A stretch of DNA of 64,000 nucleotides from positions 1,798,001 through 1,862,000 of the forward strand of contig NZ_BAAAZF010000001.1 of assembly GCF_039536765.1 (NCBI RefSeq). Reading direction: 5' to 3'. The notes under the pieces were generated by a model. The model saw only the letters and a program-made list of their open reading frames with translations, was not told the origin of the DNA and did not search any database. This document shows, in pieces, positions 24,847 through 46,217 of the stretch (its first letter is position 1; each line of letters begins with the position of its first letter). The DNA comes from Parerythrobacter jejuensis (GTDB taxonomy: Bacteria > Pseudomonadota > Alphaproteobacteria > Sphingomonadales > Sphingomonadaceae). The position numbers and the translations under genes are program-made.

Positions 24847-26049
24847 TCACGAGCCTATTCGGTCCCCTTGCCCACGCCCCAGGAAAGTTGCGAACACGAC
24901 GCTGATCTCGCTCAAGATGGATCGCTGCATAACATACCGGCGATCCCATTGAGCCAGCAGCTTGGGCGTGCTCATGTCAATCTCATGGACCTGAGCGAGC
25001 CCGGTGATACCAGGCTTCACGTTCAGGACACCGCGGCGGGAGCGCTCTGCGATCAGTTCGGATTGGACCGGCAAACATGGTCGTGGGCCGACCAAGCTAA
25101 GTTCATTCTTCAGAATGTTTAAAACTTGGGGCAATTCGTCGAGCTTGGACTTGCGCAGGAAACCGCCAACGCGGGTGATGGATGACGCGCCAACCTCGTG
25201 TGTGCCTCTTTGTGTGGTCCCCTGAGCCATGGTTCGGAATTTGTAGCAGACAAAGGCTTGTCCGGCTCGCCCGACACGCGTCTGAGCGAAAATCGCAGGT
25301 CCGGGGCTGTCAATTCGCACGGCCAGCCAAAGAATCGCGAAGAGCCAGAAAAACAATATCGCCACCGCAAGGGCGAACACCAGATCTATGGTCCGTTTGA
25401 CAGCTAGAAACAGCAGGTTCGAGTGCTGCCCATCAGACAGTTCCGTCACTGTATCCGGCCATGTTGCTGCATCGGTCGCGAGAAAATGGGCAACCGTTCC
25501 CACAGACACAGTCGGCCGCAAGGCACTGGCCAGGGCGAACAGGGGAAACTGCAAGAAACGCGGCAATCGGGCGAGTAGCCTGAGTTTGCCCTGTTGAGCG
25601 ATGCCATGAATTGCCGCCAGCCTGATGGATAGGGCAAAGCCCCCCCCAGACCGCGTCAATTCTTCGTCCGCTCGCGCCTTGCTAGCCGCATAGAGCGACT
25701 TTTCCGGAGTGGCAGCATGCAAACTGGAAAAGTTGACGAACCGATCAACCTGCGCCTGCTTGGCTAGGTCCATCACTTCCAAAGCGTGATCCACGTTGGC
25801 GGTTTGAAAGTCTGCTTGGGTTCCGGCCTGATCATTGTTGCGCGCAGCAAGGTTCACCACCAGAGAACACCCTGCAGCAAGGTCCGAGATCTCATCGTAG
25901 CTGCCGACATCGCAACCGGGATAAAGTTGGGCCAGTCTTTGGACATCACGGCCCACAAGTCGCACTTCAACACCTTGCTTACGCAACAACGGGACCAGTG
26001 CCTGGCCAACCACACCACTCGCGCCGCACAGGAGAAATCGCTTCGTCAC
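24847..26049 (-). CDS. Hybrid NDP-sugar epimerase/reductase - initiating sugar transferase
   Basis: This 400-residue fusion has an N-terminal SDR domain with Gly-Ala-Ser-Gly-Val-Val-Gly-Gln at 9-16, Ser-Ser at 108-109 and Tyr120-x3-Lys124. A hydrophobic helix (about 218-243) follows, then a bacterial sugar-transferase (WcaJ/PglC-type phosphoglycosyltransferase) domain. The latter has Asp-Ser-Pro-Gly-Pro (247-251), Lys-Leu-Asp-Glu-Leu-Pro-Gln (302-308), Pro-Arg-Pro (322-324) and Lys-Pro-Gly-Ile-Thr-Gly (345-350). The SDR would reduce the 4-keto sugar made by the CapD-like enzyme, and the second domain would load it onto undecaprenyl phosphate. GTG 26049 has an AAGGGTG site and starts 4 bp after the previous gene's stop. 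Confidence 0.9.
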   Translation of the reverse strand: MTKRFLLCGASGVVGQALVPLLRKQGVEVRLVGRDVQRLAQLYPGCDVGSYDEISDLAAGCSLVVNLAARNNDQAGTQADFQTANVDHALEVMDLAKQAQVDRFVNFSSLHAATPEKSLYAASKARADEELTRSGGGFALSIRLAAIHGIAQQGKLRLLARLPRFLQFPLFALASALRPTVSVGTVAHFLATDAATWPDTVTELSDGQHSNLLFLAVKRTIDLVFALAVAILFFWLFAILWLAVRIDSPGPAIFAQTRVGRAGQAFVCYKFRTMAQGTTQRGTHEVGASSITRVGGFLRKSKLDELPQVLNILKNELSLVGPRPCLPVQSELIAERSRRGVLNVKPGITGLAQVHEIDMSTPKLLAQWDRRYVMQRSILSEISVVFATFLGRGQGDRIGS

Positions 26050-26053
26050 CGGT

Positions 26054-27232
26054 TCACCCTTGCGCAACAAAACTGACCAAGTCGTCGGCCATTCTGTTCA
26101 TGATTTCTGTCCGGGCAAATTTCTCCCGAAACGTGCGCACAGCAGCGAGGTCAACAGGGCCAAGCTGGTCGAATGCTTCGACCAGCTGGTCCGGACGACA
26201 AGGTTCAAACACACGCGCATAAGGCAATTCTTCCTGAACCAGCTTGGCACTCACGCCATTCAGCCCGGCCAGAATTGGCTTTCCCATGGCCCCATATTCG
26301 AAAATCTTTGACGGAAGAACTTTCAGGAAGGCCGGATAGTCATTGAGGTGGACAAACAAGATGTCAGCCTGCGCATACTCCTGCAGCAGAACCGTTCGCG
26401 AAACCGGCGGCACAAGGGTGACGTTGGGCAACCCTGATACACTTTTCTTGAGCTCGGCAAGCCCGCCTCCGTGCCCAACGATACGGAATTGCGCGCGCGA
26501 CCCCAATGAACGCGCAGCCTCGGGCAAGATCCGGTGCAGACCCTGCCCTTCGCCCACATTGCCAGCATACAAGATTGTCGGGGGCCGTTTCGTGGCGGGA
26601 AGCGATCCGGCGGGATCGATCGCCAAGAACTCTTCATCGATGCCGTTCGGCAGTTCGCTCAATTCAGCAGCAGGAGCAATCCGATGCACGTGTTCGGTGA
26701 AACCTGGTGAAACGACATTGATGTAGGAAGCTCTGCGGAAAGTCCAACGCTCAAGTAGATTGAAGAGTGGCGCCAGTACCTTAGCTGTTCCTCTGCCCAG
26801 GACATTAGACATTGTCTCGGCAAACAAGTCCCGAATGTCGAGATAAAGGGGGACTGATTTGGCGGTCGACACGAAAGCCCCCAAGGTCGCCGTCATCAAA
26901 CGGGAGGAGGTGGCAAAAGCGCCATCGAAGGGGCCAGATCGGAAAACTATGGGCAACGCCTTGCCTGCAAATGTCAGAAATGATCTGGCTTGGTCGATCA
27001 TCCCGCTGTCATGGGCCGGCAAGGCGATTCGATGGACGGTGACCCTGCCAATCTGTTCGCACTCAGGAGCCTCTGCTATGGCTTCCCTGTATCTATTCGG
27101 CTGGGTGGTGACGACTACGGCAGTCATACCTTCTGGCATGCGCTCGTTCAAAGCGGCAACCAATGCTCCGCACCGGAACGAACCTGCGCACAAGTCAGGC
27201 GGGAAGTAAAAACTCAAGATGAGTAGTTTCAC
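26054..27232 (-). CDS. Family GT4 glycosyltransferase (WbuB-like)
   Basis: This 392-residue GT-B enzyme has an N-terminal acceptor half with Ser-Phe-Tyr-Phe-Pro-Pro-Asp, a family opening of WbuB/WcaI-like proteins, and Leu-Asp-Ile-Arg-Asp-Leu-Phe mid-way. The C-terminal donor half has Tyr-Ala-Gly-Asn-Val-Gly-Glu-Gly-Gln-Gly, Lys-Ile-Phe-Glu-Tyr-Gly-Ala-Met-Gly-Lys-Pro-Ile (the Glu-x7-Glu-like nucleotide-sugar region) and a closing helix. WbuB-type enzymes often transfer FucNAc-type sugars; the donor here is not proven and ManNAcA is also possible. No membrane segment is obvious, so it acts on the cytoplasmic membrane face. Confidence 0.88.
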   Translation of the reverse strand: MKLLILSFYFPPDLCAGSFRCGALVAALNERMPEGMTAVVVTTQPNRYREAIAEAPECEQIGRVTVHRIALPAHDSGMIDQARSFLTFAGKALPIVFRSGPFDGAFATSSRLMTATLGAFVSTAKSVPLYLDIRDLFAETMSNVLGRGTAKVLAPLFNLLERWTFRRASYINVVSPGFTEHVHRIAPAAELSELPNGIDEEFLAIDPAGSLPATKRPPTILYAGNVGEGQGLHRILPEAARSLGSRAQFRIVGHGGGLAELKKSVSGLPNVTLVPPVSRTVLLQEYAQADILFVHLNDYPAFLKVLPSKIFEYGAMGKPILAGLNGVSAKLVQEELPYARVFEPCRPDQLVEAFDQLGPVDLAAVRTFREKFARTEIMNRMADDLVSFVAQG

Positions 27233-30216: not shown

Positions 30217-30228
30217 GGCCGACCTCAC

Positions 30229-33138: not shown

Positions 33139-33140
33139 GA

Positions 33141-33752
33141 TCAAATGCGCGCAAAATTGGCGAGAAGCGACACACCCCAGTGGTGGCTCTTCTCTGGGTG
33201 AAACTGCGTACCGAAGACATTGCCCTTGCGAAGGGCGCATGTGAAGTCGATGCCGTATGTTGACTGAGCCAGCGCATCTTCCGGGCTTTCAGGCACAAAG
33301 TGATAGCTGTGCAGGAAGTAGAAGCGGGGGCATGGAAGATCGACAAACAGACCATCTGCGCTTGCCGGCGTAACATCATTCCATCCCATATGTGGAAGAT
33401 GCGTTCGATGGTTGAACGATGATTCATCGAAGCGTTTCACCTGCCCAGGAATCCAACCCAGCCCGGCGCATTCCCCCTCTTCGCTTCTGTCAGCCATCAT
33501 TTGCATGCCCACGCAGACACCCAGCACTGGCACCTTCGTGTCAATCACGGCTTCATCCAGGGCTTCGCGCATGCCCGATTCTTGGAGGCGCTCCATCGCG
33601 CGGTCAAAAGCTCCTACGCCCGGGAGGATAATCCTCTCAGCGCCTGCAAGCTCATCAGCCCTAGTTGCATTCTTGGCAGGAATGTTGAGGCGCTTGAAAA
33701 TATCGAGGAACGCTTGAACATTGCCCAGGCCGTAATCGACCACAATGATCAA
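33141..33752 (-). CDS. hisH2: HisH-like glutaminase subunit of sugar acetamidino modification
   Basis: This 203-residue class I glutamine amidotransferase has Val-Asp-Tyr-Gly-Leu-Gly-Asn at the start, Pro-Gly-Val-Gly-Ala-Phe, and Gly-Val-Cys-Val-Gly-Met-Gln with the nucleophile Cys. The His-Pro-Glu of the catalytic triad lies near the C-terminus (Phe-His-Pro-Glu-Lys-Ser). It hydrolyses glutamine and passes ammonia to HisF2 or the amidotransferase. The start is a TTG behind GGAGG, inside a TTGA overlap with the amidotransferase stop. An upstream in-frame start would read antisense-like sequence. The trio order (amidotransferase, hisH2, hisF2) matches acetamidino loci rather than histidine biosynthesis. 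Confidence 0.9.
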   Translation of the reverse strand: MIIVVDYGLGNVQAFLDIFKRLNIPAKNATRADELAGAERIILPGVGAFDRAMERLQESGMREALDEAVIDTKVPVLGVCVGMQMMADRSEEGECAGLGWIPGQVKRFDESSFNHRTHLPHMGWNDVTPASADGLFVDLPCPRFYFLHSYHFVPESPEDALAQSTYGIDFTCALRKGNVFGTQFHPEKSHHWGVSLLANFARI

Positions 33753-34876
33753 CGTTTGCCTCCAACTTCCAGCCCGAGCGCCTTCGCGGCCTTTGCACCG
33801 GCATCGTAGATCCACATCTGCGATTTGTAGTCACGATAAGTCTTGTTCGGCGCGTCAAAATATCCGCGCAGCTCGTCAACGGTAATCCCGAGCTTGGTCG
33901 CTACAAATTCGAAATCCTGATGAATTGTCTCGGGGTCGTATGCGGGAGATTTCAGCTTTTCGAGCGCCTCTTCACGGGTCATCTGACCTGTCAGGATCAA
34001 GCTCGAATATTGCACCTTGCGCGTATCAAATCCGAATTTCTCGGGCAGCCAGTAAGATTCGTAGAACCGCGTGAAGCGCGATTCAAAGTGCTTTTGCGGA
34101 TACGGTTGCCAGCCGAACTTTTCCTGCAGAAGCTCCATGGCTTCCGTCTTCACATATGGAATCAGATTGAGTGGCCTCCACGTCCGGATGCCCTTGACGT
34201 AAGGAAGGTACAATTTGTGCCAAAGGATCGATGTGACGGGGAAGTTCTTCAGCGGACGCTCGCCAAACTGCGAATGAATGTCGCGCAATTGCCGCGCATC
34301 CGATTGGTAGTACATCCACTCGATCGGATTGCGCACGCACTCGGTAGACAGATTGCCACCTGTCAGGATGTCGCGGACGCCATATTGCGTCGCAAACTTG
34401 TACATGGTCGCGAAGAAGGCGTGGTCTTGCGGTGTATCCACATGGGGAACGCCGGAACGGAAGAAGGCCAGTTGCAGGTCCTTGATCTCTTCCCAGTCAA
34501 TCACGTCGGTGTAGAGATCCAGTCCTAGATTATCGACCAAGCGCTCGATATTGTTGACTGCAATCTGGGAATTCCACCCTGCGTCGACGTGGAATACAAG
34601 CGGCCGCAAGCCGAACATTTCTTTGGCCGCATAGACCAGATACGAGCTGTCGATGCCGCCACTCATACCGATAATGCAGTCGAAATCCCGGCCCTCGCCG
34701 TTCTTTCGAATGCGCTCAATCATCCGGTTGAGCTCGTCCGCTGCCGCATCGCCCTGCGGCCAGTTGGGCAAAGTATGATCGCGAAAAGACCTGCAGTGAT
34801 CGCAAACACCTTGGTCATCAAAGGTGATCTTCGCGTCTGTCTCGTCCATCACGCAGTTGGTGCAAACTCTAGTCAT
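33749..34876 (-). CDS. N-acetyl sugar amidotransferase (WbpG/PseA-like)
   Basis: This 375-residue PP-loop enzyme has two Cys-x-x-Cys pairs at the N-terminus (Cys-Thr-Asn-Cys and Cys-Asp-His-Cys) that probably bind zinc. The ATP loop Ser-Gly-Gly-Ile-Asp-Ser-Ser sits near residue 70. Later blocks are Gly-Gly-Asn-Leu-Ser-Thr-Glu and Trp-Leu-Pro-Glu-Lys-Phe-Gly-Phe-Asp. The family activates a sugar N-acetyl group with ATP and installs an amidino nitrogen. Given the legionaminic-acid genes further upstream in the same run, the target may be that sugar, as in Legionella and Campylobacter glycans. It overlaps the next gene by 4 bp and the previous one by 8 bp. Confidence 0.9.
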   Translation of the reverse strand: MTRVCTNCVMDETDAKITFDDQGVCDHCRSFRDHTLPNWPQGDAAADELNRMIERIRKNGEGRDFDCIIGMSGGIDSSYLVYAAKEMFGLRPLVFHVDAGWNSQIAVNNIERLVDNLGLDLYTDVIDWEEIKDLQLAFFRSGVPHVDTPQDHAFFATMYKFATQYGVRDILTGGNLSTECVRNPIEWMYYQSDARQLRDIHSQFGERPLKNFPVTSILWHKLYLPYVKGIRTWRPLNLIPYVKTEAMELLQEKFGWQPYPQKHFESRFTRFYESYWLPEKFGFDTRKVQYSSLILTGQMTREEALEKLKSPAYDPETIHQDFEFVATKLGITVDELRGYFDAPNKTYRDYKSQMWIYDAGAKAAKALGLEVGGKR

Positions 34877-35498
34877 TGTCGCTCTTGTCGTCGCCGAGTC
34901 GGTTGATGAACTCTTGTGGATCTTTGAAATAGGCTGCGAAACGCATCAGCTTTTCATCGGGAAAATCCCACCACATTGATGCAAGCAAGTGATGGATCGT
35001 TTCTTCGTCAAAGCGATGCCGCACAAGCTTGGCTGGGCAACCCGCTGCGACCCCATAGGGCGGTATGTCTCGCGTTACAACAGCTCCTGCACCGATTACC
35101 GCGCCATGCCCGATGGACACCCCAGGGAGCACAATCGCATTGCGGCCGATCCAGACGTCATGGCCTACCTTGACCTTTTCTGGCGGAGGGCGGTCATGTT
35201 CGGAGAATTTGGCCTTCACGCTGTCGCGGCCGCTGTAAAAGACAGGCGACATACCCACCCACTCCATAGGATGGCGACCTCCGCCCAGAACCACTCCATT
35301 GGCAATCGACACGAAAGAGCCGATTTCGGCATGTGCCACATCGCAATCGTAGCCGCAAAAGGAATGGCGGCCCATGGAACTGGAAACGAAACTCGTGCCC
35401 GGTTCGACCTTGCTCGTGGCATGCACTTCTGAGTCCACTATTGCCGCGAGGCGCGCTTTCTTGAGCAACTTGGACCACAGGTAAGATAGGCGCTTCAT
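34869..35498 (-). CDS. CatB-type left-handed beta-helix O-acetyltransferase
   Basis: This 209-residue hexapeptide-repeat protein of the xenobiotic/CatB acetyltransferase group shows repeats around Ser-Val-Ile-Gly-like coils. Gly-His-Asp-Val-Trp-Ile-Gly-Arg-Asn-Ala is the family signature, followed by Val-Leu-Pro-Gly-Val-Ser-Ile-Gly-His-Gly-Ala-Val-Ile-Gly-Ala-Gly-Ala-Val-Val, and Val-Ala-Ala-Gly-Cys-Pro-Ala-Lys closes the helix. It probably O-acetylates a sugar of the polymer or a precursor using acetyl-CoA. It overlaps the amidotransferase start by 8 bp and the Wzy-like stop by 4 bp. Which sugar is acetylated cannot be told. Confidence 0.87.
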   Translation of the reverse strand: MKRLSYLWSKLLKKARLAAIVDSEVHATSKVEPGTSFVSSSMGRHSFCGYDCDVAHAEIGSFVSIANGVVLGGGRHPMEWVGMSPVFYSGRDSVKAKFSEHDRPPPEKVKVGHDVWIGRNAIVLPGVSIGHGAVIGAGAVVTRDIPPYGVAAGCPAKLVRHRFDEETIHHLLASMWWDFPDEKLMRFAAYFKDPQEFINRLGDDKSDND

Positions 35499-36673
35499 GC
35501 TATCCCTTTCCTGGGTCGCGAACTCTCTGCCGCATCTCTTGCACGAAAGAACATCAGGATCATCAGGAAGAAGAAGACATCCAGCAGCGTCGGGAAGAGC
35601 ACCGGTTCAGTCGCAGCACGGACAGCCGCCATACCGACATAGAATCCAATCGGCAACTTGAGCGACCAAGGTCCGCGAGCGAAGAAAATAATGAGAGGGC
35701 TCAGGGCAGCCATCAAAGTGGGAAAAATCCCGAAGAACGAGTGCGTCCTTATGTAGGCGATGTGAGGATTACCCTCGTGCTTGAACTCGATAAGCGTGCC
35801 TGAATAGTCAGCCCCTATGAAGAACGTAAAGACGTCGATCTTTGAAAGATAGCTCGCGATGATGGCTTCACGGTTGCGGTCGGAAATGCCGACGCTCAGC
35901 TTGGTGTAACGGCTCACGTAATCGAAAAGCTCGACGGCATAGATCGCCAACTGCGCCATCGCCGCAATCGAGATTGCCATGAGCAACAAGCGATAGATGA
36001 AGGGCACTTTGCGCGGGAAAAGATTGAATGCCAATCCGCCCATGACAAGCAGGCTTCCGACGACCAAAGAACCACGTCCGCTACCGTAAAATGCAATGAG
36101 GAACGTTATGATCGGAGTCACTAACGGGGCACGCCCATGCATGACGAATGTCGTCACGCACAAGAATGTTTGCACGATGATCATGTATGCCGGGATGCCG
36201 TTGGTGCTCGAGCCCTCGATCACCTCGGCAAAAGGTGTTGGCGAACCCCAATAGATGTAGAGGACAATCCCGACCAGAGCGGCGAGCACGAAGTACAGTA
36301 TCGTCGCCGCAAGATGCAAAGCTGCAGCTGAGAAGCGCGACATTGTGTAAGCTGTCACGAACGTGACTGCGGTGGCAAAGAAGTAGAATACAGGTGAAAA
36401 ACCGTGGCCTGGTTTTAGAAACGCCGGGAAGAACAATAGCAAGACCATCAAGCAATTGGTGACAGTTCGGCTACTGACCGGCAGCAAATGCGCGTGGCGC
36501 ACTACAAACGCCAAACAAATGGCGACCCCGCCCACCAAAGTAATGATGGATTGTAGCGCAAATGCGAGAACGATCGTTATGCTGAGTCCGGCAAGCTCGA
36601 TGCCCTGCCAAAATTCAGCAGAGCTCTTATCGGCAAAACGGGCAGTGATCGCTGGCGCTGGTAAGGTTGCCAC
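35495..36673 (-). CDS. Wzy-like O-antigen/polysaccharide polymerase candidate
   Basis: This 392-residue protein is highly hydrophobic with roughly ten membrane helices, spread over the whole length with one longer extracytoplasmic loop near 260-310. That loop holds Gly-Ile-Ser-Asp-Arg-Asn-Arg-Glu and His-Ser-Phe-Phe-Gly-Ile-Phe. Helix pattern, loop position and locus fit Wzy-type polymerases, which have little sequence conservation. It has no Wzy_C signature that I can name. Its ATG shares one base with the following gene's reading frame (TGATG-type junction), and its stop overlaps the acetyltransferase start. The other candidate with a similar role is the ligase-family protein at 50511. Confidence 0.7.
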   Translation of the reverse strand: MATLPAPAITARFADKSSAEFWQGIELAGLSITIVLAFALQSIITLVGGVAICLAFVVRHAHLLPVSSRTVTNCLMVLLLFFPAFLKPGHGFSPVFYFFATAVTFVTAYTMSRFSAAALHLAATILYFVLAALVGIVLYIYWGSPTPFAEVIEGSSTNGIPAYMIIVQTFLCVTTFVMHGRAPLVTPIITFLIAFYGSGRGSLVVGSLLVMGGLAFNLFPRKVPFIYRLLLMAISIAAMAQLAIYAVELFDYVSRYTKLSVGISDRNREAIIASYLSKIDVFTFFIGADYSGTLIEFKHEGNPHIAYIRTHSFFGIFPTLMAALSPLIIFFARGPWSLKLPIGFYVGMAAVRAATEPVLFPTLLDVFFFLMILMFFRARDAAESSRPRKGIA

Positions 36674-37932
36674 TACTGATACTCCGATCTGATCACTGTC
36701 GAGATTTTGTCGACATCGATTATTCGGTCCGGATCATCATACAGAATCTCTGGCCTGATCGTCTCGGTCCTTATCAGGAATTTGCGTCCTTGGAATCTCG
36801 GATCGATATGAGTTGTCGAATAGAGTGACAGAAGGATGGGATCCGGCAGCGATTGAATCTCATTGATCGACTGGACCATTGCGAACCCGTCTGGTGCTTT
36901 CGGGTTTCGATAGTTTGGGTGCGGCTTGAACATCAGCGCAATATCCGGCTCATCCGCCGCGAGGCGGCGCAACTCTGTCACAAGTTGGCGTTCAGACTGC
37001 GCGATAAACGTCAATTCATTGCCGAAATCCTGGCTCACAATCACAACAGCCTTTTCCGGACCGGATTTGGAAACATCGGGAGCTGTGTCAAAGGCGGCGT
37101 TGATCGTGTGCCGCCCGTATTCGCAAGGGACCGACGCCGTATAGTAGGCCTCTTGGCGATCAATCAGAGTGTCGAATTTGGCGTAAGCGTGAACTGGGAA
37201 ATACTTGCCGACGCCATGGGCGACATTGTGGGTCAAGATGTTCTTCCGCGACAAATACCGCGCGAAATGCAGGCTGCCGATGTTGAATTCATCGGAGAGT
37301 TGCACGAGCGACGGCGGCCTAGCAGCGATGCGAATGGCGCGGCGAAGTTCGCTTCGCGCCTCGAGGCGGGCAAGGCTTTCGTAATTTCGTCGCCGCAGGA
37401 AACCCAGCGTATCCCCAAGGCCATACCTGTTGCCGTCGAGAAAGTAGCGCAGGCCATTGCGGCGCAGGTAGCGGAGATATCGCCATTGCCTGCCAAGGCT
37501 TATGGGGAAGGGATACACCGCGCGCCAGACGACACCTTCATCAGCATCAAAAGCAAGTTCGATATCGTCAACATAGGCTTTGCGATACGTCCAGTCGCCA
37601 TTCGTTATGCGCCTGCGTTTTAAGGCGCCGAAAAGGGCGAAAAGACTATGCGCAACGACCTTCACGATTGTTCGAACAACAACCTTGTTCGGAACACGGC
37701 GGGGGAACACATCTTCGAGAACCGACGGAGGGCCGGCCGCTTGAGCCAGATAGGCGTCCGGATCAGCCAGAAAAAGGTTCGCCTCTGCCTCATAGAAGGC
37801 CGCCGCGTTTCGCCATGACCAATTGGCCCGCCGAAACGCCCGGCTTCGATGCTCTCCGTGCGCCTTCGCCGCCGCAACTAGGCGATGGGAGAAGGCAACG
37901 GCACCGCGCAGCATGGGCACTTCGATAGTCAT
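36673..37932 (-). CDS. GT-B-like glycosyltransferase; candidate nonulosonate transferase
   Basis: This 419-residue protein has no signal peptide; a short hydrophobic segment near 88-103 may associate with the membrane. Lys-Pro-His-Pro-Asn (336-340) and Ser-Thr-Thr (372-374) resemble the HP and S-S/T motifs of bacterial sialyltransferases, and Asp-Glu-Gly (131-133) could be their D/E-D/E-G motif. Their order is correct. An Ala-His-Gly (238-240) in the middle also recalls capsule and CDP-glycerol transferases. The locus makes CMP-legionaminic acid and this is the only unassigned transferase-like gene, so a legionaminyltransferase is plausible but unproven. ATG 37932 lies in an ATGA overlap with wzx; the frame's upstream extension is not supported. 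Confidence 0.65.
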   Translation of the reverse strand: MTIEVPMLRGAVAFSHRLVAAAKAHGEHRSRAFRRANWSWRNAAAFYEAEANLFLADPDAYLAQAAGPPSVLEDVFPRRVPNKVVVRTIVKVVAHSLFALFGALKRRRITNGDWTYRKAYVDDIELAFDADEGVVWRAVYPFPISLGRQWRYLRYLRRNGLRYFLDGNRYGLGDTLGFLRRRNYESLARLEARSELRRAIRIAARPPSLVQLSDEFNIGSLHFARYLSRKNILTHNVAHGVGKYFPVHAYAKFDTLIDRQEAYYTASVPCEYGRHTINAAFDTAPDVSKSGPEKAVVIVSQDFGNELTFIAQSERQLVTELRRLAADEPDIALMFKPHPNYRNPKAPDGFAMVQSINEIQSLPDPILLSLYSTTHIDPRFQGRKFLIRTETIRPEILYDDPDRIIDVDKISTVIRSEYQ

Positions 37933-39239
37933 GCGTCTGTTCGCCAGGCGCTGAACCAAGGCATCGGCATAACAGCGTTCGAAAGCACCCAAACTGCTAC
38001 GAAAAGGACGATATTCGTGATCATGAAGGATAGTCCTGCCCCAAGAATCCCGAATTGCATGATGAGGAGCGCCGACCAAACCACAGCAGCGGCCACAACA
38101 CCACACGTGACAAAGGAGAGCTTCCCGGTCTTCTCGGCATAGAAGATGTAGTTGACCACGCCATAGTACATTCCTTGGAAAGCCATGCCGACCGCTACCG
38201 GAACGATGATCTGCTTGGCGTCAGAAAATTCATCCGAAAAAAGAAGGTCGAAAACACTCACAAACAGAGCCGCCGCGATCATCGAAAGAGCCAGCAAGCC
38301 AACAAACAGCCCATAGGTAACTTTGACTATCAGTCTCTTGTCGTCTTCGGAACCATCTGTGAGCTTCTTAAAAAGCCACGGAGCAAGTGTGCGATTGAGT
38401 GGCTCGATCACAAGGCTCAAGGCCATTCCGAGCTGAGATGCAACCATGAAGATCCCGAGCTTCTCAATACCCAGCAGGTACGACACCATTATCCGGTCAA
38501 GGTTGGTGAGCATTTGCCCTGCGAAGACATGCGGTACCAATGGGATACCGAAACGCGCTACGCTCTCGAAAGCCTTCTTGTCCGGAGCTGTCGCGAGGAC
38601 ACGTTTCTTGACCAAGAAGGCCAAAGCACACAGCGCGCTCGCGGCAATGGCTGCAACATAGGACCAAATGCGGACATCCGGACCCGCAACAATGAGCTGC
38701 AAGAGTGCAAGGCAGCCAAGAATTTCGATAGCCGACTGGAGCATACGCAGCAGCAGGTAGATGCCGGGGCGCTGACTTGCCTGCATGAAGGCAAGTCCGA
38801 TCAAATTTATGCTAAGTGCCACACCTACGGCCGCAGCGCCCAACGAGTAAGTTCGCGTAAGTCCGGTGAATGCGCTGAGAGGCACGAGCCCGGTAGAAAT
38901 TACCAGCCCGGCTAGCAGATGAACCAAAAGAATTACGGAGATCGCCGCAGCAACGATGCGCTGGAACCCGACAAATGCGTCTTTGAAAAACCGGACGGAT
39001 ACAAGGCCATGCACGGTCAGTCCGCATGTGTTGGCAATCATGGCCACTAGAACGATCCACGAAGTCGCCTGCCCAAACTCGGCCGGAGAAAGGGCCTGCG
39101 TCAGAACCGGCAGGAGGACCAATGGTGTGAGGCCGGCAAAGCTGAAAGCGATGGCATATAGTGCCACCGAGCGTCCAATGGAGGACTGCAGCCCCACCCA
39201 AGCTTGCCGCAAAAGTATCGAAGGTGAGAGCGCGCGCAT
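37929..39239 (-). CDS. wzx: Wzx-type polysaccharide flippase (MOP superfamily)
   Basis: This integral membrane protein of about 436 residues has 12-14 helices and a typical Wzx layout. An N-terminal helix pair contains Leu-Thr-Pro-Leu-Val-Leu-Leu-Pro-Val-Leu-Thr-Gln-Ala-Leu-Ser-Pro-Ala-Glu-Phe-Gly (the last two near residue 55). A mid-protein region has Phe-Gly-Ile-Pro-Leu-Val-Pro-His-Val and Asn-Leu-Asp-Arg-Ile-Met-Val. These are the usual flippase blocks. It would move the lipid-linked repeat unit across the inner membrane. ATG 39239 or the TTG 12 bp further upstream could be used; neither has a strong ribosome site. It lies 27 bp after the guanylyltransferase gene. Confidence 0.88.
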   Translation of the reverse strand: MRALSPSILLRQAWVGLQSSIGRSVALYAIAFSFAGLTPLVLLPVLTQALSPAEFGQATSWIVLVAMIANTCGLTVHGLVSVRFFKDAFVGFQRIVAAAISVILLVHLLAGLVISTGLVPLSAFTGLTRTYSLGAAAVGVALSINLIGLAFMQASQRPGIYLLLRMLQSAIEILGCLALLQLIVAGPDVRIWSYVAAIAASALCALAFLVKKRVLATAPDKKAFESVARFGIPLVPHVFAGQMLTNLDRIMVSYLLGIEKLGIFMVASQLGMALSLVIEPLNRTLAPWLFKKLTDGSEDDKRLIVKVTYGLFVGLLALSMIAAALFVSVFDLLFSDEFSDAKQIIVPVAVGMAFQGMYYGVVNYIFYAEKTGKLSFVTCGVVAAAVVWSALLIMQFGILGAGLSFMITNIVLFVAVWVLSNAVMPMPWFSAWRTDA

Positions 39240-39266
39240 ACAATTCCACAAGCGACTTGCCCGCGA

Positions 39267-40322
39267 TCACCCGGTAATCGTTTGGTCGGCTCGGGCCAGA
39301 TCGTCTGGCCTGCCTACATCCAGCCAGTCCTCATGCATAGGGAAAACGACTGTGCGTTCTTGGCGGTCACGAATGCGTCCGAACAAGGTAGGCATATCGC
39401 AATAAGCATTGGTCTCTAGCAGATCGAGCGCGCTTGGGTCGATCACATAGATGCCGGCGTTTACGTAGGATTTTACGACAGGCTTTTCTTCGAACCCTGT
39501 GATTTCAACCCCATCGGTCAGAACAACACCGAATTCATTGCGCATTTCGTGACTGCGGACGGCCATGGTTGCCACAGCGCGATGGAGATTATGATAGTCG
39601 ACCACTTCCGCGAAATTCACACTCGAAATGACGTCGCCGTTGCAGACAAGGAACGGTGCTCTAGGTCGCTCTTGGAGCAGACTCAGTGATCCGCCTGTGC
39701 CCAAGGGCGTTTCTTCACGGACATAGTCGATCGAGACACCCCATTTCGAACCATCACCGAAATACTCTTCGATCATGTGTCCGAGATAATGAACGGAAAC
39801 GACAAAGTTCGTGATGCCCGATGCTCTTGCATTCTCAAGAATGTGTTCCAGCATCGGCTTTCCCGACACCTCGAGAAGGGGCTTCGGGCAATTCTGAGTG
39901 TGGGGCCGAAGCCGGGTGCCCTTACCGCCCGCCATGATGACCATGAGATTGGGCCGTTCTTGTGCAGCCCCCATCATATCGGGAATATATAATCCCACCA
40001 GAACTCCGGAATCATCAATAATCGGCATTTGCCGGATCTTGTTGGCTGACATCAACTGCCGCACAGTTGCTTCTGGCAAATCACTCGGTGCGACCATGGG
40101 TGAGCGCTGGATAATCCCGTCTATCGAGCTTTCCAGCGTGTCGCCGCGTAATAGGCCCCGCCGAATGTCGCCATCGGTGATGGTTCCTTCCAGCACACCG
40201 TCGGCATCGGCCGCCAATACGATTTGCAGGCCTGATCGATCAAGCGCAGCAATCGCATCGCCAATGGTGGCACTCGATCGCTGCAACAGCGCCTTTCGCC
40301 AGCCAGGGTGCGTCTCAACCAT
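39267..40322 (-). CDS. CBS-domain sugar-1-phosphate guanylyltransferase (PtmE-like)
   Basis: This 351-residue protein has two N-terminal CBS repeats (to about 120, with Thr-Asp-Gly-Asp-Ile-Arg-Arg-Gly and Met-Pro-Ile-Ile-Asp) joined to a nucleotidyltransferase domain. The latter has Met-Ala-Gly-Gly-Lys-Gly-Thr-Arg-Leu-Arg-Pro, Cys-Pro-Lys-Pro-Leu-Leu, Cys-Asn-Gly-Asp-Val and Phe-Glu-Glu-Lys-Pro. The CBS-NTP transferase layout is that of Campylobacter PtmE, which makes GDP-glucosamine for the legionaminic-acid route. The adjacent leg genes support this. CBS domains suggest nucleotide-dependent regulation. The ATG shares one base with the legG stop (TGATG). Confidence 0.85.
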   Translation of the reverse strand: MVETHPGWRKALLQRSSATIGDAIAALDRSGLQIVLAADADGVLEGTITDGDIRRGLLRGDTLESSIDGIIQRSPMVAPSDLPEATVRQLMSANKIRQMPIIDDSGVLVGLYIPDMMGAAQERPNLMVIMAGGKGTRLRPHTQNCPKPLLEVSGKPMLEHILENARASGITNFVVSVHYLGHMIEEYFGDGSKWGVSIDYVREETPLGTGGSLSLLQERPRAPFLVCNGDVISSVNFAEVVDYHNLHRAVATMAVRSHEMRNEFGVVLTDGVEITGFEEKPVVKSYVNAGIYVIDPSALDLLETNAYCDMPTLFGRIRDRQERTVVFPMHEDWLDVGRPDDLARADQTITG

Positions 40323-41503
40323 CAGACCGATCCTTCGTCAGTCGGCAGATCATATGCAAGGTCCAAAAACGCTTTTGAAGACCCGCGTGGTGTCCAGTCC
40401 TCGATCTCTTTCACAATTCGCTCAGAGGCCCCGCCCTGCCCATAAGGATTGACAACATCCTTTACCTGCTCACGAAATTCCGACGCGAGGATACGCTTCA
40501 GGCCCGCGGCGATTGCGCTGCGATCGGCTGGGCAATCGACAACGCTTGCTGCGCGCAACCTGCCATCCTGACGCGCGCCGATATTTAGCGTTGGAATCTT
40601 GAATGCAGGAGCCTCGATCAATCCACTCGATGAATTGCCAACTACGCCATCAACAATTGCCATTGTCGAAAGATACCGTCTCTGCCCAAGCGATACATGA
40701 GCACAGGCCCGATCCGGATGCGCTGCGACAAATTCATCGATCAAGCGGAAAAGCACTCGCCCGCCCGTATCCGCATTGGGCAATGTGAATATAATGCTGG
40801 CGTCAACACTCTCTAGCGCCGCCAGCAGCTCCAGCATCTGCCCGGCCGGATCGTTCGCCGTACTTGTTTCCGGATGGAAGGTGACCAGCAGATTTTTCTC
40901 CCCGAGTGGGAAATCAAGCGATGCTTCGAGTTCCTCCCGTGTCATCAGATCGGCGCGAAGTATCCCATCGATTCCCAAGCCTCCGACGTTCCATACACTG
41001 CATGGATCCTCTCCCATCTGCACCACGCGCCTCCGATAGGGCTCTGCCGCTGTGAAATGCAGGTGCGACATCTTGGTGATGGAATGACGAATCGGATCGT
41101 CACATGCGCCGACCGTCAGCTCACCGCCATGCAGATGCGCGATCGGAATATTGGCGATCATGGCAGCTGCTGCAGCGGCCAACATCTCGAAACGATCACC
41201 AAGAATCACAATCAAATCAGGCTTCAATTCGCTGAGAGCATCAGCATAGCCAATCATGCCAAGTCCCATCGACTTGGTTATACCAACCGCACTGTCAGAA
41301 CTCAGCAGCATCTCGACCTTTCGGTCAATCTTGAAGCCATCAGCTTCTATCGCCTCCCAGGTCGCTCCAAACTCAGGCGACAAGTGCATGCCTGTCGCAA
41401 TGATCTGCAGTTCGCATGAAGCCGAATGCTGAAGGCCTTCGATCACCCATCGCAAAAGGCCATATTCGGCCCGCGTTCCCGTTATTACGCACACTCGCTT
41501 CAT
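40322..41503 (-). CDS. legG: NDP-sugar hydrolysing 2-epimerase (LegG/NeuC family)
   Basis: This 393-residue GT-B-fold enzyme releases NDP and epimerises C2 of the diacetamido sugar, giving the 6-deoxy-mannosamine precursor of legionaminic acid. It has Thr-Gly-Thr-Arg-Ala-Glu-Tyr-Gly-Leu-Leu, Gly-Asp-Arg-Phe-Glu-Met, His-Leu-His-Gly-Gly-Glu-x-Thr-x-Gly-Ala-x-Asp-Asp, His-Pro-Glu-Thr and Val-Gly-Asn-Ser-Ser-Ser-Gly-Leu-Ile-Glu. Hydrolysing 2-epimerases carry these. ATG 41503 has GGAGAGG 7 bp upstream; a longer in-frame start at 41572 gives an unlikely leader. The 124 bp up to the legI stop contain nothing I recognise. Confidence 0.92.
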   Translation of the reverse strand: MKRVCVITGTRAEYGLLRWVIEGLQHSASCELQIIATGMHLSPEFGATWEAIEADGFKIDRKVEMLLSSDSAVGITKSMGLGMIGYADALSELKPDLIVILGDRFEMLAAAAAAMIANIPIAHLHGGELTVGACDDPIRHSITKMSHLHFTAAEPYRRRVVQMGEDPCSVWNVGGLGIDGILRADLMTREELEASLDFPLGEKNLLVTFHPETSTANDPAGQMLELLAALESVDASIIFTLPNADTGGRVLFRLIDEFVAAHPDRACAHVSLGQRRYLSTMAIVDGVVGNSSSGLIEAPAFKIPTLNIGARQDGRLRAASVVDCPADRSAIAAGLKRILASEFREQVKDVVNPYGQGGASERIVKEIEDWTPRGSSKAFLDLAYDLPTDEGSV

Positions 41504-41627
41504 CGCGCGCCCTCTCCGCAATGTTTGAGCCAAACCTGCACTTGCGAATGCAGCCTTGCTTGGCGAGGACAAGAAAACTCACCTTCTCGCAAACCCCGAT
41601 TGGAGCTTGCTTTCACGAGAGAGGTTG

Positions 41628-42656
41628 TCACACGCCCTCCCTCCTGTTGCCAGACGAAATCTCGATCATTTCATCAGGGACATAGTTCTTCTGCGCCACT
41701 TGCCCGATCACTGCATCCCAGCGCATTGGAGAAACGCCATCACCAGGGCGTTTGGTGGTTAGGTTCTTGACCGTGAATGCCTCACCCTTCGATATCGGGC
41801 ATGCCGCGACTATCGACTTTCGCACTATGGACCGATTGCCAACTTCGCTGGGCGAAGGGCGCTTGATACCGTCGCCAGACATGGCAGCCTCGATATTCCG
41901 GATAGAACGCACCATCGCGCGCAATTCTTCGGGCTCAAGACTCGCAGCATGATCTGGGCCTGGGAGCGTACGATCGAGAGTAAAGTGTTTTTCGATTACG
42001 CTTGCCCCAAGCGCGACTGCCGCAATGGAGACTTCGATACCGGCGGTATGGTCGGAATAGCCGTGAGAGGTGCCTAACGCTCTGCCGATATTGGCCATCG
42101 CACGCAGATTAACATCGTGCATAGGGGTCGGGTATTCAGTGTTGCAGTGAAGGATCGTCAGATCTTCGCGATCTGCACCGCCGTCTTCAAGGACATCAAC
42201 CGCTGATTCAATTTCGCCAAGATTCGCCATTCCGGTCGAAAGAATGATGGGAAGGCCTCTGCCAGCAACATGGCGCAACAGCGGCAAGTTCGTGATCTCT
42301 CCAGAGGGGATTTTTACTCGGTCGATCCCAAGCTCGAAAAGGAAATCCAGACTGTCGATATCGAAACCGGTCGAGAAGAAACCGATGCCACATTCCTTGC
42401 ATTCCTGCATCAGATCGTAGTGGTCCTCGCGAGAAAGCTCGAGCTTTCGAACCATCTCGAGTTGGCTTTCGTCCGTCCCTGTCGATGTCTGTTGATAAGC
42501 AGCCTTGGGGGCATTTGCGGAAGCAATCTTGCTCGCTGTGAAGGTTTGGAACTTAACCAGGTCAGCGCCCGCATCTGCCGCCGCCTTCACCAGTTTACGG
42601 GCCACCCCCATGTCGCCATTATGATTTACTCCTGCCTCGGCAATGATCAGTGTCAC
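41628..42656 (-). CDS. legI: Legionaminic acid synthase (NeuB family)
   Basis: This 342-residue protein condenses the mannosamine-type intermediate with phosphoenolpyruvate. Blocks include Ile-Ala-Glu-Ala-Gly-Val-Asn-His-Asn-Gly, Val-Lys-Phe-Gln-Thr-Phe, Lys-Ile-Pro-Ser-Gly-Glu-Ile-Thr-Asn, Ser-Thr-Gly-Met-Ala, His-Cys-Asn-Thr-Glu-Tyr-Pro and Gly-Tyr-Ser-Asp-His-Thr. A C-terminal antifreeze-like (SAF) domain follows, with Arg-Ser-Ile-Val and Lys-Arg-Pro-Gly-Asp-Gly. Thr-Asn after Ser-Gly-Glu is common in the LegI/NeuB branch. GTG 42656 lies in a GTGA overlap with the acetyltransferase stop and has an AAGGAG site. The longer in-frame start encodes an odd Cys-rich leader. Confidence 0.92.
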   Translation of the reverse strand: MTLIIAEAGVNHNGDMGVARKLVKAAADAGADLVKFQTFTASKIASANAPKAAYQQTSTGTDESQLEMVRKLELSREDHYDLMQECKECGIGFFSTGFDIDSLDFLFELGIDRVKIPSGEITNLPLLRHVAGRGLPIILSTGMANLGEIESAVDVLEDGGADREDLTILHCNTEYPTPMHDVNLRAMANIGRALGTSHGYSDHTAGIEVSIAAVALGASVIEKHFTLDRTLPGPDHAASLEPEELRAMVRSIRNIEAAMSGDGIKRPSPSEVGNRSIVRKSIVAACPISKGEAFTVKNLTTKRPGDGVSPMRWDAVIGQVAQKNYVPDEMIEISSGNRREGV

Positions 42657-43291
42657 AAGAGTTTCTCCTTGGCTGGGACGCCGACTGATGTTGCACGAGG
42701 CCGGACATCGTGGACGACCGCCGCCCCCGAACCAACAACAGACCAGGCACCAATCTGACGCGGTGATGCATCCGTACCTTGATTCACCACAACCCCCATG
42801 CCTACCCAAGCTCCTTCGGCGACAAAAACATTTCCGGCCAAATGAGCGCCAGGCGACAAATTGACGAAGTCATCCAGCACACAATCGTGCGAAACCGTAG
42901 CATTGAGATTGAGGGTGCAGAAATCACCGATCTTGCAACCACCCATCACTCTCACCCCGGGGAATACCACGGTACCAGCGGTTTTAGACAGCATGTCAAA
43001 CATGCCGCGCGCAAGCGAGCTGTCGGGATCGATCAGGGCGGGAAATCTTAACTGCTGCCGGTATTTGTTTGCGGCCAACCGACGCGTTTGGTTGTCTCCG
43101 ATTCCGATGGCGAACGCTGCGTCACCCTTTGTGACAACCTGATCCTCAAGCGCGATTTCATCACTGCCCTGCCAACTCTCTATTTCAGCTTGATCGCGCG
43201 TCACAAAGATCGGTCGCCAATCAAGCCGGAAAGCGATTTCAGCAATGTCCCGCGCTTGGCCGCCGGTTCCCAAGATAAACAGGTCACTCAC
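42653..43291 (-). CDS. NeuD/PglD-family sugar N-acetyltransferase (LegH candidate)
   Basis: This 212-residue protein has an N-terminal Rossmann-like Leu-Gly-Thr-Gly-Gly-Gln-Ala-Arg-Asp-Ile-Ala-Glu, then left-handed beta-helix coils with Asn-Leu-Asn-Ala-Thr-Val-Ser-His-Asp. The His there is the usual catalytic residue of PglD/NeuD enzymes. Val-Gly-Val-Pro-Ala-Lys closes the helix. In this place it most likely acetylates the 4-amino group made by LegC, so it is the LegH function. GTG 43291 overlaps the legF stop by 4 bp; no upstream ATG fits. The alternative is O-acetylation of the finished sugar. Confidence 0.85.
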   Translation of the reverse strand: MSDLFILGTGGQARDIAEIAFRLDWRPIFVTRDQAEIESWQGSDEIALEDQVVTKGDAAFAIGIGDNQTRRLAANKYRQQLRFPALIDPDSSLARGMFDMLSKTAGTVVFPGVRVMGGCKIGDFCTLNLNATVSHDCVLDDFVNLSPGAHLAGNVFVAEGAWVGMGVVVNQGTDASPRQIGAWSVVGSGAAVVHDVRPRATSVGVPAKEKLL

Positions 43292-43971
43292 TGGCTCGAT
43301 TTGTGCCGCGCGCGCAGCAGCATTTCCGCGAACTTCCAATCGAGCATGTCGTCCACGTCGACGGAGTCCTCCGCTTCCATAATATAGGCCCGCGTATCTT
43401 GGCTGACCAAGGCTCGATGCTCCAAAAACCAAGCCACGCTGACCCAATACAGCGCACCGTTGAGGGAAAACAACTGTTCAAGGTCCTGCCTTCGGGTAGC
43501 CTTCTTTTCACCGGCATAAGGGACCATATCACCGGCTTCGCCGCAATGATACATGATTGCCGGATGGTCACGAACTTCCGTCACTGAAGTAGCCGACAAG
43601 GTCTTGGTTCGACGGCTAAGCTCGAGAATTCCTTCGATATGCTCCGAAGTCCGCAGGGGCGAAGTCGGTTGGAGCAGCACCAGATCCTTATATTCGGGCA
43701 ATTGTTCACATGCATGTGCGACAACGCTTTGGCTTGATGCGTTATCATCGGCCAATTCGGCAGGACGCATAAAGGGCACATCAGCGCCGTACTGGCGGGC
43801 GACGGATGCTATCTCTTCGTCTTCTGTCGAAACCACGACCCGCGCAATCGATCGGGAAGACAGGGCAGCTTCGATAGTCCAGGCTATCAGTGGCTTCCCG
43901 GCAATCATCCGAATATTCTTGCGCGGAATACCTTTTGACCCGCCCCGGGCTGTGATCAATGCCAGGGTCAC
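43288..43971 (-). CDS. legF: CMP-legionaminic acid synthetase (acylneuraminate cytidylyltransferase)
   Basis: This 227-residue enzyme activates the nonulosonic acid with CTP. Visible are Ala-Arg-Gly-Gly-Ser-Lys-Gly-Ile-Pro-Arg-Lys-Asn (nucleotide loop), Gly-Lys-Pro-Leu-Ile-Ala-Trp-Thr-Ile, Leu-Leu-Gln-Pro-Thr-Ser-Pro-Leu-Arg and a C-terminal Ser-Val-Asp-Val-Asp-Asp-Met-Leu-Asp. All family blocks are present. It overlaps legC (ATGA) and the acetyltransferase by 4 bp each. Its product needs a CMP-sugar transferase, for which 36673-37932 is the candidate. Confidence 0.93.
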   Translation of the reverse strand: MTLALITARGGSKGIPRKNIRMIAGKPLIAWTIEAALSSRSIARVVVSTEDEEIASVARQYGADVPFMRPAELADDNASSQSVVAHACEQLPEYKDLVLLQPTSPLRTSEHIEGILELSRRTKTLSATSVTEVRDHPAIMYHCGEAGDMVPYAGEKKATRRQDLEQLFSLNGALYWVSVAWFLEHRALVSQDTRAYIMEAEDSVDVDDMLDWKFAEMLLRARHKSSQ

Positions 43972-45161
43972 ACATCACCCCCAGCCCCGGCAGGCGCCGC
44001 GAACAGCTTGGGGCTGCTCGGGATGTTGATGATTTGCACTGCCAGGCGTTCGGCGCACGAAAGGTCTGCCCGTGGTGCATCCGCAAACATGGGCAGCCGA
44101 TGCATCAGGGTCCAAACAGGTCGTGCCATCAAGCCCGCATCGTTAAGTGCCGAAAGCACCTCTGTGTGCAGCTGATGATCAAATTGTTCCAGTACCAGCG
44201 TGCAAAGCCAGTAATTGCTCTCGGTGCCCTGCGGCTCTTCAAGGAGCCGCACACCCGCAATGTCTTTAAAGAGCGCCTTGTATCGCATCGCAAGCGCACG
44301 CTTGCGTTGCAACATGTCAGTGATACGCTCTAACTGTGCGCATCCGAGGGCGGCATTGAGGTTTGGCAGACGATAATTGTAGCCGATTTCGTCATGAGTA
44401 AAATTCCACCCGTCTGAGATACGCGCGGTAGTGGTCAGATGCTTGGCACGATCAGCGATCGCGGGATCATTCGTGAGTATGGCGCCACCACCTCCGGTGG
44501 TGAGGATCTTGTTGCCATTGAAGCTGAGGGCTGAAACCAGGCCGAAGCCGCCCGTGTGGCGGCCTTGGTAGTATGAACCAAGAGACTCAGCAGCATCCTC
44601 GACGAGCGGGATCGACCATTCCCGGCACAATTCCAGCAATGGATCGAGTTGCGCGGGATGGCCGAACGCATGCATGACGACAAGGGCAGCAATCCGGCGG
44701 CCAGTCTTGCGATTGAAGCAGCCACCATCGCGTTTCTCCGCGCATTCTTCGAGATGGCTTCGCAGAGCTTCGGGACAGACAGCCAACGTGGTCGCTTCAC
44801 TATCGACAAAATGCGGAATGGCGCCTGCGTAAGAGGTCGCGTTTGCAGTCGCTACAAACGTCAGAGTGGGCAGAAGGACCTCATCCCCTGCTTGGACACC
44901 TGAACACTTCAACGCGATATGGAGCGCAGCGGTGCCGTTGACGGTCGCAACCGCTCGGCTGCAACCGGTGAATTCTGCAAGATCCGCTTCAAAACGGTCT
45001 ACGAAAGAGCCAACACTCGAAACCCAGCCAGTGCGGATGCAGTCGGCAACATAGTCCTCTTCTCGACCCGCAAACTCAGGTTCGTGCAGCGGGGTGAAGG
45101 CCTCGGGGAATCCAGCGCCTTCGCGAACCGCCTCGAGAATGGAGTTGGTGAGTGTCGTCAT
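43968..45161 (-). CDS. legC: LegC-family PLP aminotransferase
   Basis: This 397-residue DegT/DnrJ/EryC1-fold enzyme aminates the 4-keto sugar made by LegB. Early blocks are Pro-Leu-His-Glu-Pro-x-Phe-x-Gly-x-Glu and Gly-Trp-Val-Ser-Ser-Val-Gly, characteristic of LegC. The PLP Lys lies in Ser-Phe-Asn-Gly-Asn-Lys-Ile-Leu-Thr-Thr-Gly, with Glu-Asp-Ala-Ala-Glu-Ser and Asn-Tyr-Arg-Leu-Pro-Asn around the cofactor and dimer site. Length is normal. It is 30 bp after legB and overlaps legF by 4 bp. Confidence 0.94.
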   Translation of the reverse strand: MTTLTNSILEAVREGAGFPEAFTPLHEPEFAGREEDYVADCIRTGWVSSVGSFVDRFEADLAEFTGCSRAVATVNGTAALHIALKCSGVQAGDEVLLPTLTFVATANATSYAGAIPHFVDSEATTLAVCPEALRSHLEECAEKRDGGCFNRKTGRRIAALVVMHAFGHPAQLDPLLELCREWSIPLVEDAAESLGSYYQGRHTGGFGLVSALSFNGNKILTTGGGGAILTNDPAIADRAKHLTTTARISDGWNFTHDEIGYNYRLPNLNAALGCAQLERITDMLQRKRALAMRYKALFKDIAGVRLLEEPQGTESNYWLCTLVLEQFDHQLHTEVLSALNDAGLMARPVWTLMHRLPMFADAPRADLSCAERLAVQIINIPSSPKLFAAPAGAGGDV

Positions 45162-45191: not shown

Positions 45192-46217
45192 TTATATGTT
45201 ATAAGTATCGGCTTTGTAGCGGGCCAGATTGGACGCATCGATGAACCATTCGATGGTTTCATCGAGGCCGCGGCCAAAGCCCTCATGATCCCCGTAATCC
45301 GGCGTCCAGCCTGCAAGATCTCGCGCTTTTTCATTGGAAGCCCAAAGCCGCTCAACCTCGCTCTTCTCCGGCCGCATGCGCTGGTCGTCGCTTGTGACCT
45401 TGATGCTCTTACCCATACGCTCAGCGATGAGCTTAGCGGTATCGCCAATGGAGATTTCGTAATTGCTCCCGACATTGATGACTTCACCAATCGCGCTGTC
45501 AGCTTCGGCGACCGCGCAAAACCCGCGCACAGTATCACGAACATAATTGAAGTCGCGCGTCGGATGCGTGGCTCCGAGTTTGATTTCCTCCTTGCCGGCA
45601 GCAAGCTGGGTGATGATTGTCGGAATGACCGCACGGGCGGATTGCCTTGGCCCATAGGTGTTGAAGGGACGAATTGTGGTCACCGGCGTATCAAACGACA
45701 AATAGAAGCTTTGAGCGATCTGATCTGCGCCGATCTTGCTAGCAGAGTAGGGCGACTGGCCTTGAAGGGGGTGCGCTTCATCGATGGGAACGTAGCGCGC
45801 GGTGCCATAAACTTCGCTCGTCGAAGTGTGCACGACGCGCTCAACCCCAAGGTCTCGAGCAGCCTGGACTATGTTCAGAGTGCCTTTGACGTTGGTATCG
45901 ACGTAGCTATCTGGCGAGTGGTAGGAGAAAGGGATAGCGATGAGCGCAGCGAGGTGCATAACGACGTCGCAGTCTTGCATGGCAGTCCGAACACCGTTGG
46001 GATCACGAATGTCCCCGGCAAATACATCGATTGAGCGCCGAACGGTTTCAGAGCTCTGGTCAAGCCAACCCCAACTGTTGAAGCTGTTGTAGTATACAAA
46101 CGCCCGGACGTCCGCCCCCTGCTCCACCAGATACTCGACGAGATGAGATCCGATAAAGCCATCGGCCCCAGTCACGAGTACGCGCTTGTTCTTCAGTTCC
46201 AATGTCTCGCCATCCAC
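45192..46217 (-). CDS. legB: NAD-dependent 4,6-dehydratase LegB
   Basis: This 341-residue extended SDR starts the legionaminic-acid route on (probably GDP-)GlcNAc. It has Val-Thr-Gly-Ala-Asp-Gly-Phe-Ile-Gly-Ser-His-Leu, then Tyr-Tyr-Asn-Ser-Phe-Asn-Ser-Trp-Gly-Trp-Leu-Asp, a stretch peculiar to LegB. Thr-Ser-Thr-Ser-Glu-Val-Tyr-Gly, Tyr-Ser-Ala-Ser-Lys (catalytic Tyr/Lys) and Asn-Thr-Tyr-Gly-Pro-Arg-Gln-Ser-Ala-Arg-Ala-Val follow. It is the first gene of the leg block, with a candidate promoter 34-61 bp upstream. The PtmE-like gene downstream supports a GDP-sugar rather than UDP-sugar substrate. Confidence 0.94.
   Translation of the reverse strand: MDGETLELKNKRVLVTGADGFIGSHLVEYLVEQGADVRAFVYYNSFNSWGWLDQSSETVRRSIDVFAGDIRDPNGVRTAMQDCDVVMHLAALIAIPFSYHSPDSYVDTNVKGTLNIVQAARDLGVERVVHTSTSEVYGTARYVPIDEAHPLQGQSPYSASKIGADQIAQSFYLSFDTPVTTIRPFNTYGPRQSARAVIPTIITQLAAGKEEIKLGATHPTRDFNYVRDTVRGFCAVAEADSAIGEVINVGSNYEISIGDTAKLIAERMGKSIKVTSDDQRMRPEKSEVERLWASNEKARDLAGWTPDYGDHEGFGRGLDETIEWFIDASNLARYKADTYNI

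Follow-up and report, generated by a model that had tools for sequence, protein, structure and literature searches.

Which protein attaches legionaminic acid to the polysaccharide of this locus? Legionaminic acid is a bacterial cousin of sialic acid and although many bacteria make the sugar, to our knowledge very few legionaminic acid transferases are known. The window analyzed here is a 64,000 nucleotide stretch of DNA from Parerythrobacter jejuensis. A first-pass annotation made from the sequence alone proposed that a gene at 36673..37932 of the window, referred to here as P0001, is a candidate for a new family of nonulosonate transferase. The evidence discussed below makes P0001 a concrete, testable candidate for a CMP-legionaminate transferase.

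The gene and its surroundings

P0001 is a real gene. Its frame runs on the minus strand from an ATG at 37932 to a TAG at 36675-36673 and has 419 codons, and stops interrupt that frame on the plus strand over 36673-37932. The start of P0001 shares an ATGA overlap with the stop of the upstream wzx-like flippase gene (37929..39251, 440 aa, weak TuaB match), and its stop shares a TAGTG overlap with the GTG of the downstream wzy candidate (35495..36673, 392 aa), a multi-spanning protein without a Pfam match. The reported position between wzx and wzy is thus correct. The two genes beyond the wzy candidate overlap likewise, so that the run is tightly packed, and the GC content of P0001 (0.558) is similar to that of the adjoining genes.

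The pathway and glycosyltransferase genes of the cluster described next are also on the minus strand. Profile searches of the cluster genes exceeded the curated cut-offs for legB dehydratase (45192..46217, TIGR04180), legC aminotransferase (43968..45161, TIGR04181), legG/neuC hydrolysing epimerase (40322..41572, TIGR03568) and legI/neuB synthase (41628..42809, TIGR03569), the true start of the last probably being at about 42656. The legH/neuD-like acetyltransferase (42653..43447) is just below the cut-off of the NeuD model and the legF/neuA-like CMP-nonulosonate synthetase (43288..43971) is just below that of PseF, its best model. A ptmE-like protein with CBS and nucleotidyltransferase domains (39267..40322) was recognized by a profile match. 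These genes lie in the same overlapping run as P0001 and bear out the view that the locus makes a CMP-nonulosonate. The gene set is that of the legionaminate pathway, probably with GDP-linked precursors.

P0001 is the only one of the cluster glycosyltransferase genes with a [KR]xHP motif. A GT4-type glycosyltransferase (26054..27232) and an initiating sugar-phosphate transferase (Bac_transf) fused to a NAD-dependent epimerase domain (24847..26070) are both without KxHP. A search of the genome at E 0.001 found neither a Maf-type (PF01973) nor a Capsule_synth (PF05159) protein, and no CDP-polyol synthesis gene was recognized among the cluster genes examined. As judged from sequence, P0001 is the best candidate in the cluster for attaching legionaminic acid.

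Other features of the window concern the polysaccharide more generally. A WbuX/HisH/HisF-like trio is located in the same stretch (32368-34876). Such trios serve to make acetamidino sugars, and from its presence legionaminate or another sugar of the polysaccharide may be amidinated. A heparinase II/III-like gene adjoins a zinc-dehydrogenase/GFO-IDH-MocA fusion within the polysaccharide cluster (28576-32355). Besides the wzy candidate, a second multi-spanning O-antigen polymerase/ligase-like protein is encoded near wza/wzc (50511-51887).

Motifs and their spacing

The four motifs named in the first-pass annotation are all present on the minus strand, and the positions it gave are exact: DEG at residues 131-133 (37534..37542), AHG at 238-240 (37213..37221), KPHP at 336-339 (36916..36927) and ST at 372-373 (36814..36819). 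A second AHG is found at residue 24, and an STT begins at 372. How much weight does each motif carry? The pattern [DE][DE]G turns up in 22% of shuffled P0001 sequences, in 21% of real ORFs of 330-520 aa from the compared loci and in seven other genes of the P0001 cluster, and therefore has no weight as evidence. KxHP by itself is present in about 9% of both shuffles and real ORFs. Of the real ORFs in these loci, 0.5% have the combined pattern xHG-(~100)-KxHP-(24-56)-S[ST], thus the combination is informative.

The DEG of P0001 had been read as the D/E-D/E-G motif of sialyltransferases. It lies 205 residues before KPHP, whereas D/E-D/E-G precedes KxHP by 137 residues in a GT52-type relative, 141 in a GT38-type relative and 131 and 125 in two KpsC-like relatives. 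It is also not conserved among the aligned relatives. On the grounds of spacing, non-conservation and chance frequency DEG was rejected as a catalytic motif and is judged to be a chance match. AHG lies 98 residues before KPHP. In xHG proteins the distance to KxHP is mostly 97-105 residues, with one at 83, and the spacing in P0001 matches that of xHG...KxHP proteins from other legionaminate loci. AHG is presumed from these comparisons to be a better candidate than DEG for the catalytic loop.

KxHP and ST bind CMP in characterized enzymes (PMC12887879, PMC5517516), and KPHP and ST in P0001 are presumed to be a cytidine-nucleotide binding motif and a phosphate contact, respectively. Their assignment held up: GT-B sialyl-, Kdo- and polyol-phosphate transferases share a CMP/CDP-binding motif which KPHP..ST fits, and KPHP and ST are in register with the relatives. 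KxHP proteins include CDP-polyol transferases, therefore the motif leaves the donor of P0001 unfixed.

Homologues, alignment and predicted structure

P0001 had been described as unrecognized, and no Pfam family matched it at E 1, including PF07388, PF07922, PF05159 and PF04464 (Glyphos_transf). The sole library match is to the NF046086 glycosyltransferase model over residues 301-355 (55 residues, E 0.0015), at 17.7 bits far below the curated cut-off of 200. Some 1,360 genome searches covering the order, class and phylum in overlapping samples, with 199 relatives among them, yielded no full-length homologue, and neither did 94 fetched loci, all ORFs of the nonulosonate loci, plasmids and phages (tblastn), viral contigs or exact peptide patterns in GTDB genome contigs. 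Conservation within the protein's own family therefore cannot be seen. Two weak genome matches that retain KPHP are KpsC-like proteins matched at the KxHP region. The weak matches at L002-L005, L053 and L054 were taken as chance.

Legionaminate loci in several phyla supplied ten proteins that were aligned with P0001 (11 proteins in all). AHG aligns with QHG, KPHP with KxHP and YST with S-S/T, and subsets agree under three MAFFT strategies. In the alignment (A2) H239 and S372 do not vary and G240, P246, H338 and P339 hardly do; identities are 12-17%. Pairwise scores against legionaminate-locus proteins are near the shuffle level, so it is the motif register and the profile comparison that carry the relation. 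With hhalign, P0001 alone matched the ten-protein profile at E 0.00047 over 229-340 with a score of 36.5, and 200 shuffles scored at most 23.8. Among 350 real proteins used as a control, 14 score as high and 10 of these are other KxHP proteins, which places P0001 in the GT-B KxHP superfamily and not in one sub-family. The HMMER score of the ten-protein profile against P0001, 1.6 bits, is above those of 1000 shuffles and is not significant. When the alignment profile was compared with solved proteins, KpsC was closest (E 0.0098).

An AlphaFold2 model of P0001 with the ten relatives has pLDDT values mostly of 70-90 at about 291-419 and below 50 for most of the rest; a single-sequence model has a pLDDT of 32. 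The first model was built on a hand-chosen alignment and therefore leans towards that fold. The fold comparison was limited to 281-419, and the matches are GT-B C-terminal domains with Z 7.4-10.5, where a Z under 8 may reflect a shared arrangement only. The stretch from about 291 to 419 is confidently modelled as a GT-B nucleotide-binding domain. The suggestion that P0001 is GT-B-like thus stands for the C-terminal domain, as modelled, and the N-terminal half is without a reliable model. TarL with CDP-ribitol matched at Z 8.8, Bcs3, a TagF-like capsule enzyme, with CMP at Z 7.9 and a GT38 polysialyltransferase at Z 7.8. Apart from one weak Foldseek match to GT80, GT52, GT80 and GT97 are not among the fold matches listed, which is not counted against them. 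It had been suggested that a fold matching only CDP-glycerol or KpsC-type transferases would speak against the proposal. The result is not cleanly of that kind, as TarL, the CMP-bound TagF-like enzyme, GT38 and KpsC are matched alike, and a match to KpsC is compatible with ulosonate transfer since KpsC is a CMP-ulosonate transferase. The KpsC, sialyltransferase and TarL folds are all middling matches, hence the fold search does not choose among them.

The highest Z, 10.5 as an upper value, belongs to non-hydrolysing UDP-GlcNAc 2-epimerases. Could P0001 use an NDP donor for another sugar of the repeat unit, with legionaminic acid being transferred by the GT4 enzyme or by a gene outside the window? 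The C-terminal domains of UDP-sugar enzymes being the top matches is in keeping with this, and B. subtilis SpsA and SpsB, which were expected from their position to be Leg transferases, proved otherwise (PMC7439481). However, KxHP..ST is a cytidine-nucleotide signature in characterized families (PMC12887879, PMC5517516), the cluster GT4 protein is without it, and the genome search for Maf and Capsule_synth genes described above found none. Use of an NDP donor is considered unlikely.

Comparison with known transferases

Tannerella forsythia GtfS (Tanf_01245) and TFUB4_00887 are transferases of Pse/Leg derivatives (PMC6388019, PMC6120980). Like P0001 they are GT-B-type proteins of similar length (445 and 442 aa), with a location beside nonulosonate genes and a HP motif, and their knock-out strips nonulosonate from the glycan. 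Both are reported with D/E-D/E-G and DXD, whereas P0001 is without a correctly spaced D/E-D/E-G; the proteins were compared by description. GT38 MhPST (5wc6, 5wcn) has a C-terminal fold like that of P0001 (16% identity at the Z given above), and its HP and ST follow each other as they do in P0001. MhPST has E153 as the base and H291 as the HP histidine, and a role for S339/T340 has been described (PMC5517516). E153, part of D/E-D/E-G, precedes the HP histidine of MhPST by 138 residues, whereas in P0001 His239 of AHG precedes the HP histidine by 99. Unlike GT38, P0001 does not match PF07388.

TagF and TarL, like P0001, have an xHG loop followed by KxHP at a similar spacing, and a similar C-terminal fold. 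If P0001 were a CDP-polyol or phosphosugar transferase of this kind, it would use His239 and His338; TagF uses two conserved histidines, H444 and H584 (PMC5974469). The xHG-KxHP spacing of 98 in P0001 is close to the 105 of a Glyphos_transf protein, and TarL (16% identity) is among the better fold matches. However, P0001 has no match to Glyphos_transf (PF04464) and the cluster genes examined include no recognized CDP-polyol pathway, making this a very doubtful assignment.

KpsC, WbbB and KrkA (GT107, GT99 and GT140) are retaining Kdo transferases with a CMP-ulosonate donor, and KpsC and WbbB have KxHP as in P0001. A QxxxD nucleophile motif has been described for retaining ulosonate transferases (PMC12887879). 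It is improbable that P0001 belongs with these enzymes and KpsS1 and acts through a covalent Asp adduct: KpsC being the solved sequence closest to the alignment profile, the KpsC-like proteins among the weak matches in relatives and the extent of sequence divergence in the fold shown by GT140 KrkA (PMC12887879) speak for it, but P0001 has no PF05159 match, QxxxD was not recognized at the expected place, the nearest sequence on reading by eye being Q211-L-S-D-E (211-215) in a region without a reliable model, and equatorial C5 substituents have been argued to disfavor the mechanism (PMC12887879).

Proposed role and mechanism

Taken together, we consider it moderately probable that P0001 is a very divergent GT-B CMP-legionaminate transferase. 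The function is the one expected for the gene's place, and it is probably an unusually divergent protein that performs it. From the motifs and the gene context we infer the donor, acceptor, catalytic residue and stereochemistry as follows. P0001 would act in the cytoplasm, transferring legionaminic acid or one of its derivatives from CMP-Leg to a lipid-linked repeat unit before the neighboring Wzx flips the unit and the neighboring Wzy polymerizes it. The CMP part would be held by K336, H338 and P339 together with S372 and T373. His239 of the Ala-His-Gly loop, rather than Asp-Glu-Gly 131-133, may serve as general base in an inverting reaction by direct displacement, with His338 as a putative stabilizer of the leaving group. 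These two roles are proposed because KxHP and ST bind CMP in characterized enzymes and TagF-like enzymes use conserved histidines.

That P0001 is the founder of a new transferase family is possible but unproven. A more specific form of the idea is that a His base in Ala-His-Gly replaces the acid of D/E-D/E-G in a new family of CMP-legionaminate transferases, with the QHG..YFP..KxHP..YST proteins described below as distant relatives that do the same job; this is offered tentatively and is rather less likely true than false. The comparison suggests xHG..KxHP..ST, beside D/E-D/E-G, as a signature for further transferases.

Related proteins in other nonulosonate loci

LegI as the query gave 12 regions within the order and a further 80 loci in other bacteria. 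In a minority of these, the stretch collected includes a GT-B-like gene with [KR]xHP..S[ST]. Some of these genes match Capsule_synth, polysialyltransferase or GT52 and others match nothing in Pfam. In Bacteroidota, Bacillota and one Deltaproteobacterium, legionaminate loci encode unnamed proteins that match no Pfam family significantly and have QHG..YFP..KxHP..YST in common (L129:15349-16707, L067:10858-12189, L088:18092-19534, L115:3-1310, L063:19721-20995 and L061:15144-16550, the last without an intact KxHP). By their sequence motifs they are candidate nonulosonate transferases themselves.

The gene neighbors of NF046086 proteins (BFO_1060 family glycosyltransferase) are often neuA/neuB. 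One possibility considered is that BFO_1060 might be GtfS itself. In 14 genomes or regions picked by an NF046086 match alone, with stretches up to 20 kb, neuB was present in 9, a neuA-like gene in 10 and either in 12. Distances to neuB were read by hand from position lists of whole genomes: neuB is no more than 12 kb away for 11 of the 14 NF046086 matches, but for 2 of the 146 GT4 (PF00534) genes that these genomes contain (Fisher p 9e-13). Proteins of this broad kind therefore travel with nonulosonate synthesis. The association is carried mainly by a sister group (TIGR04396-like), and the match of P0001 to NF046086 is partial. In most of the sampled genomes (L135-L148), neuA/neuB have a protein of NF046086 or TIGR04396 ('surface carbohydrate biosynthesis') encoded near them, which suggests a nonulosonate role for these two named but uncharacterized families.
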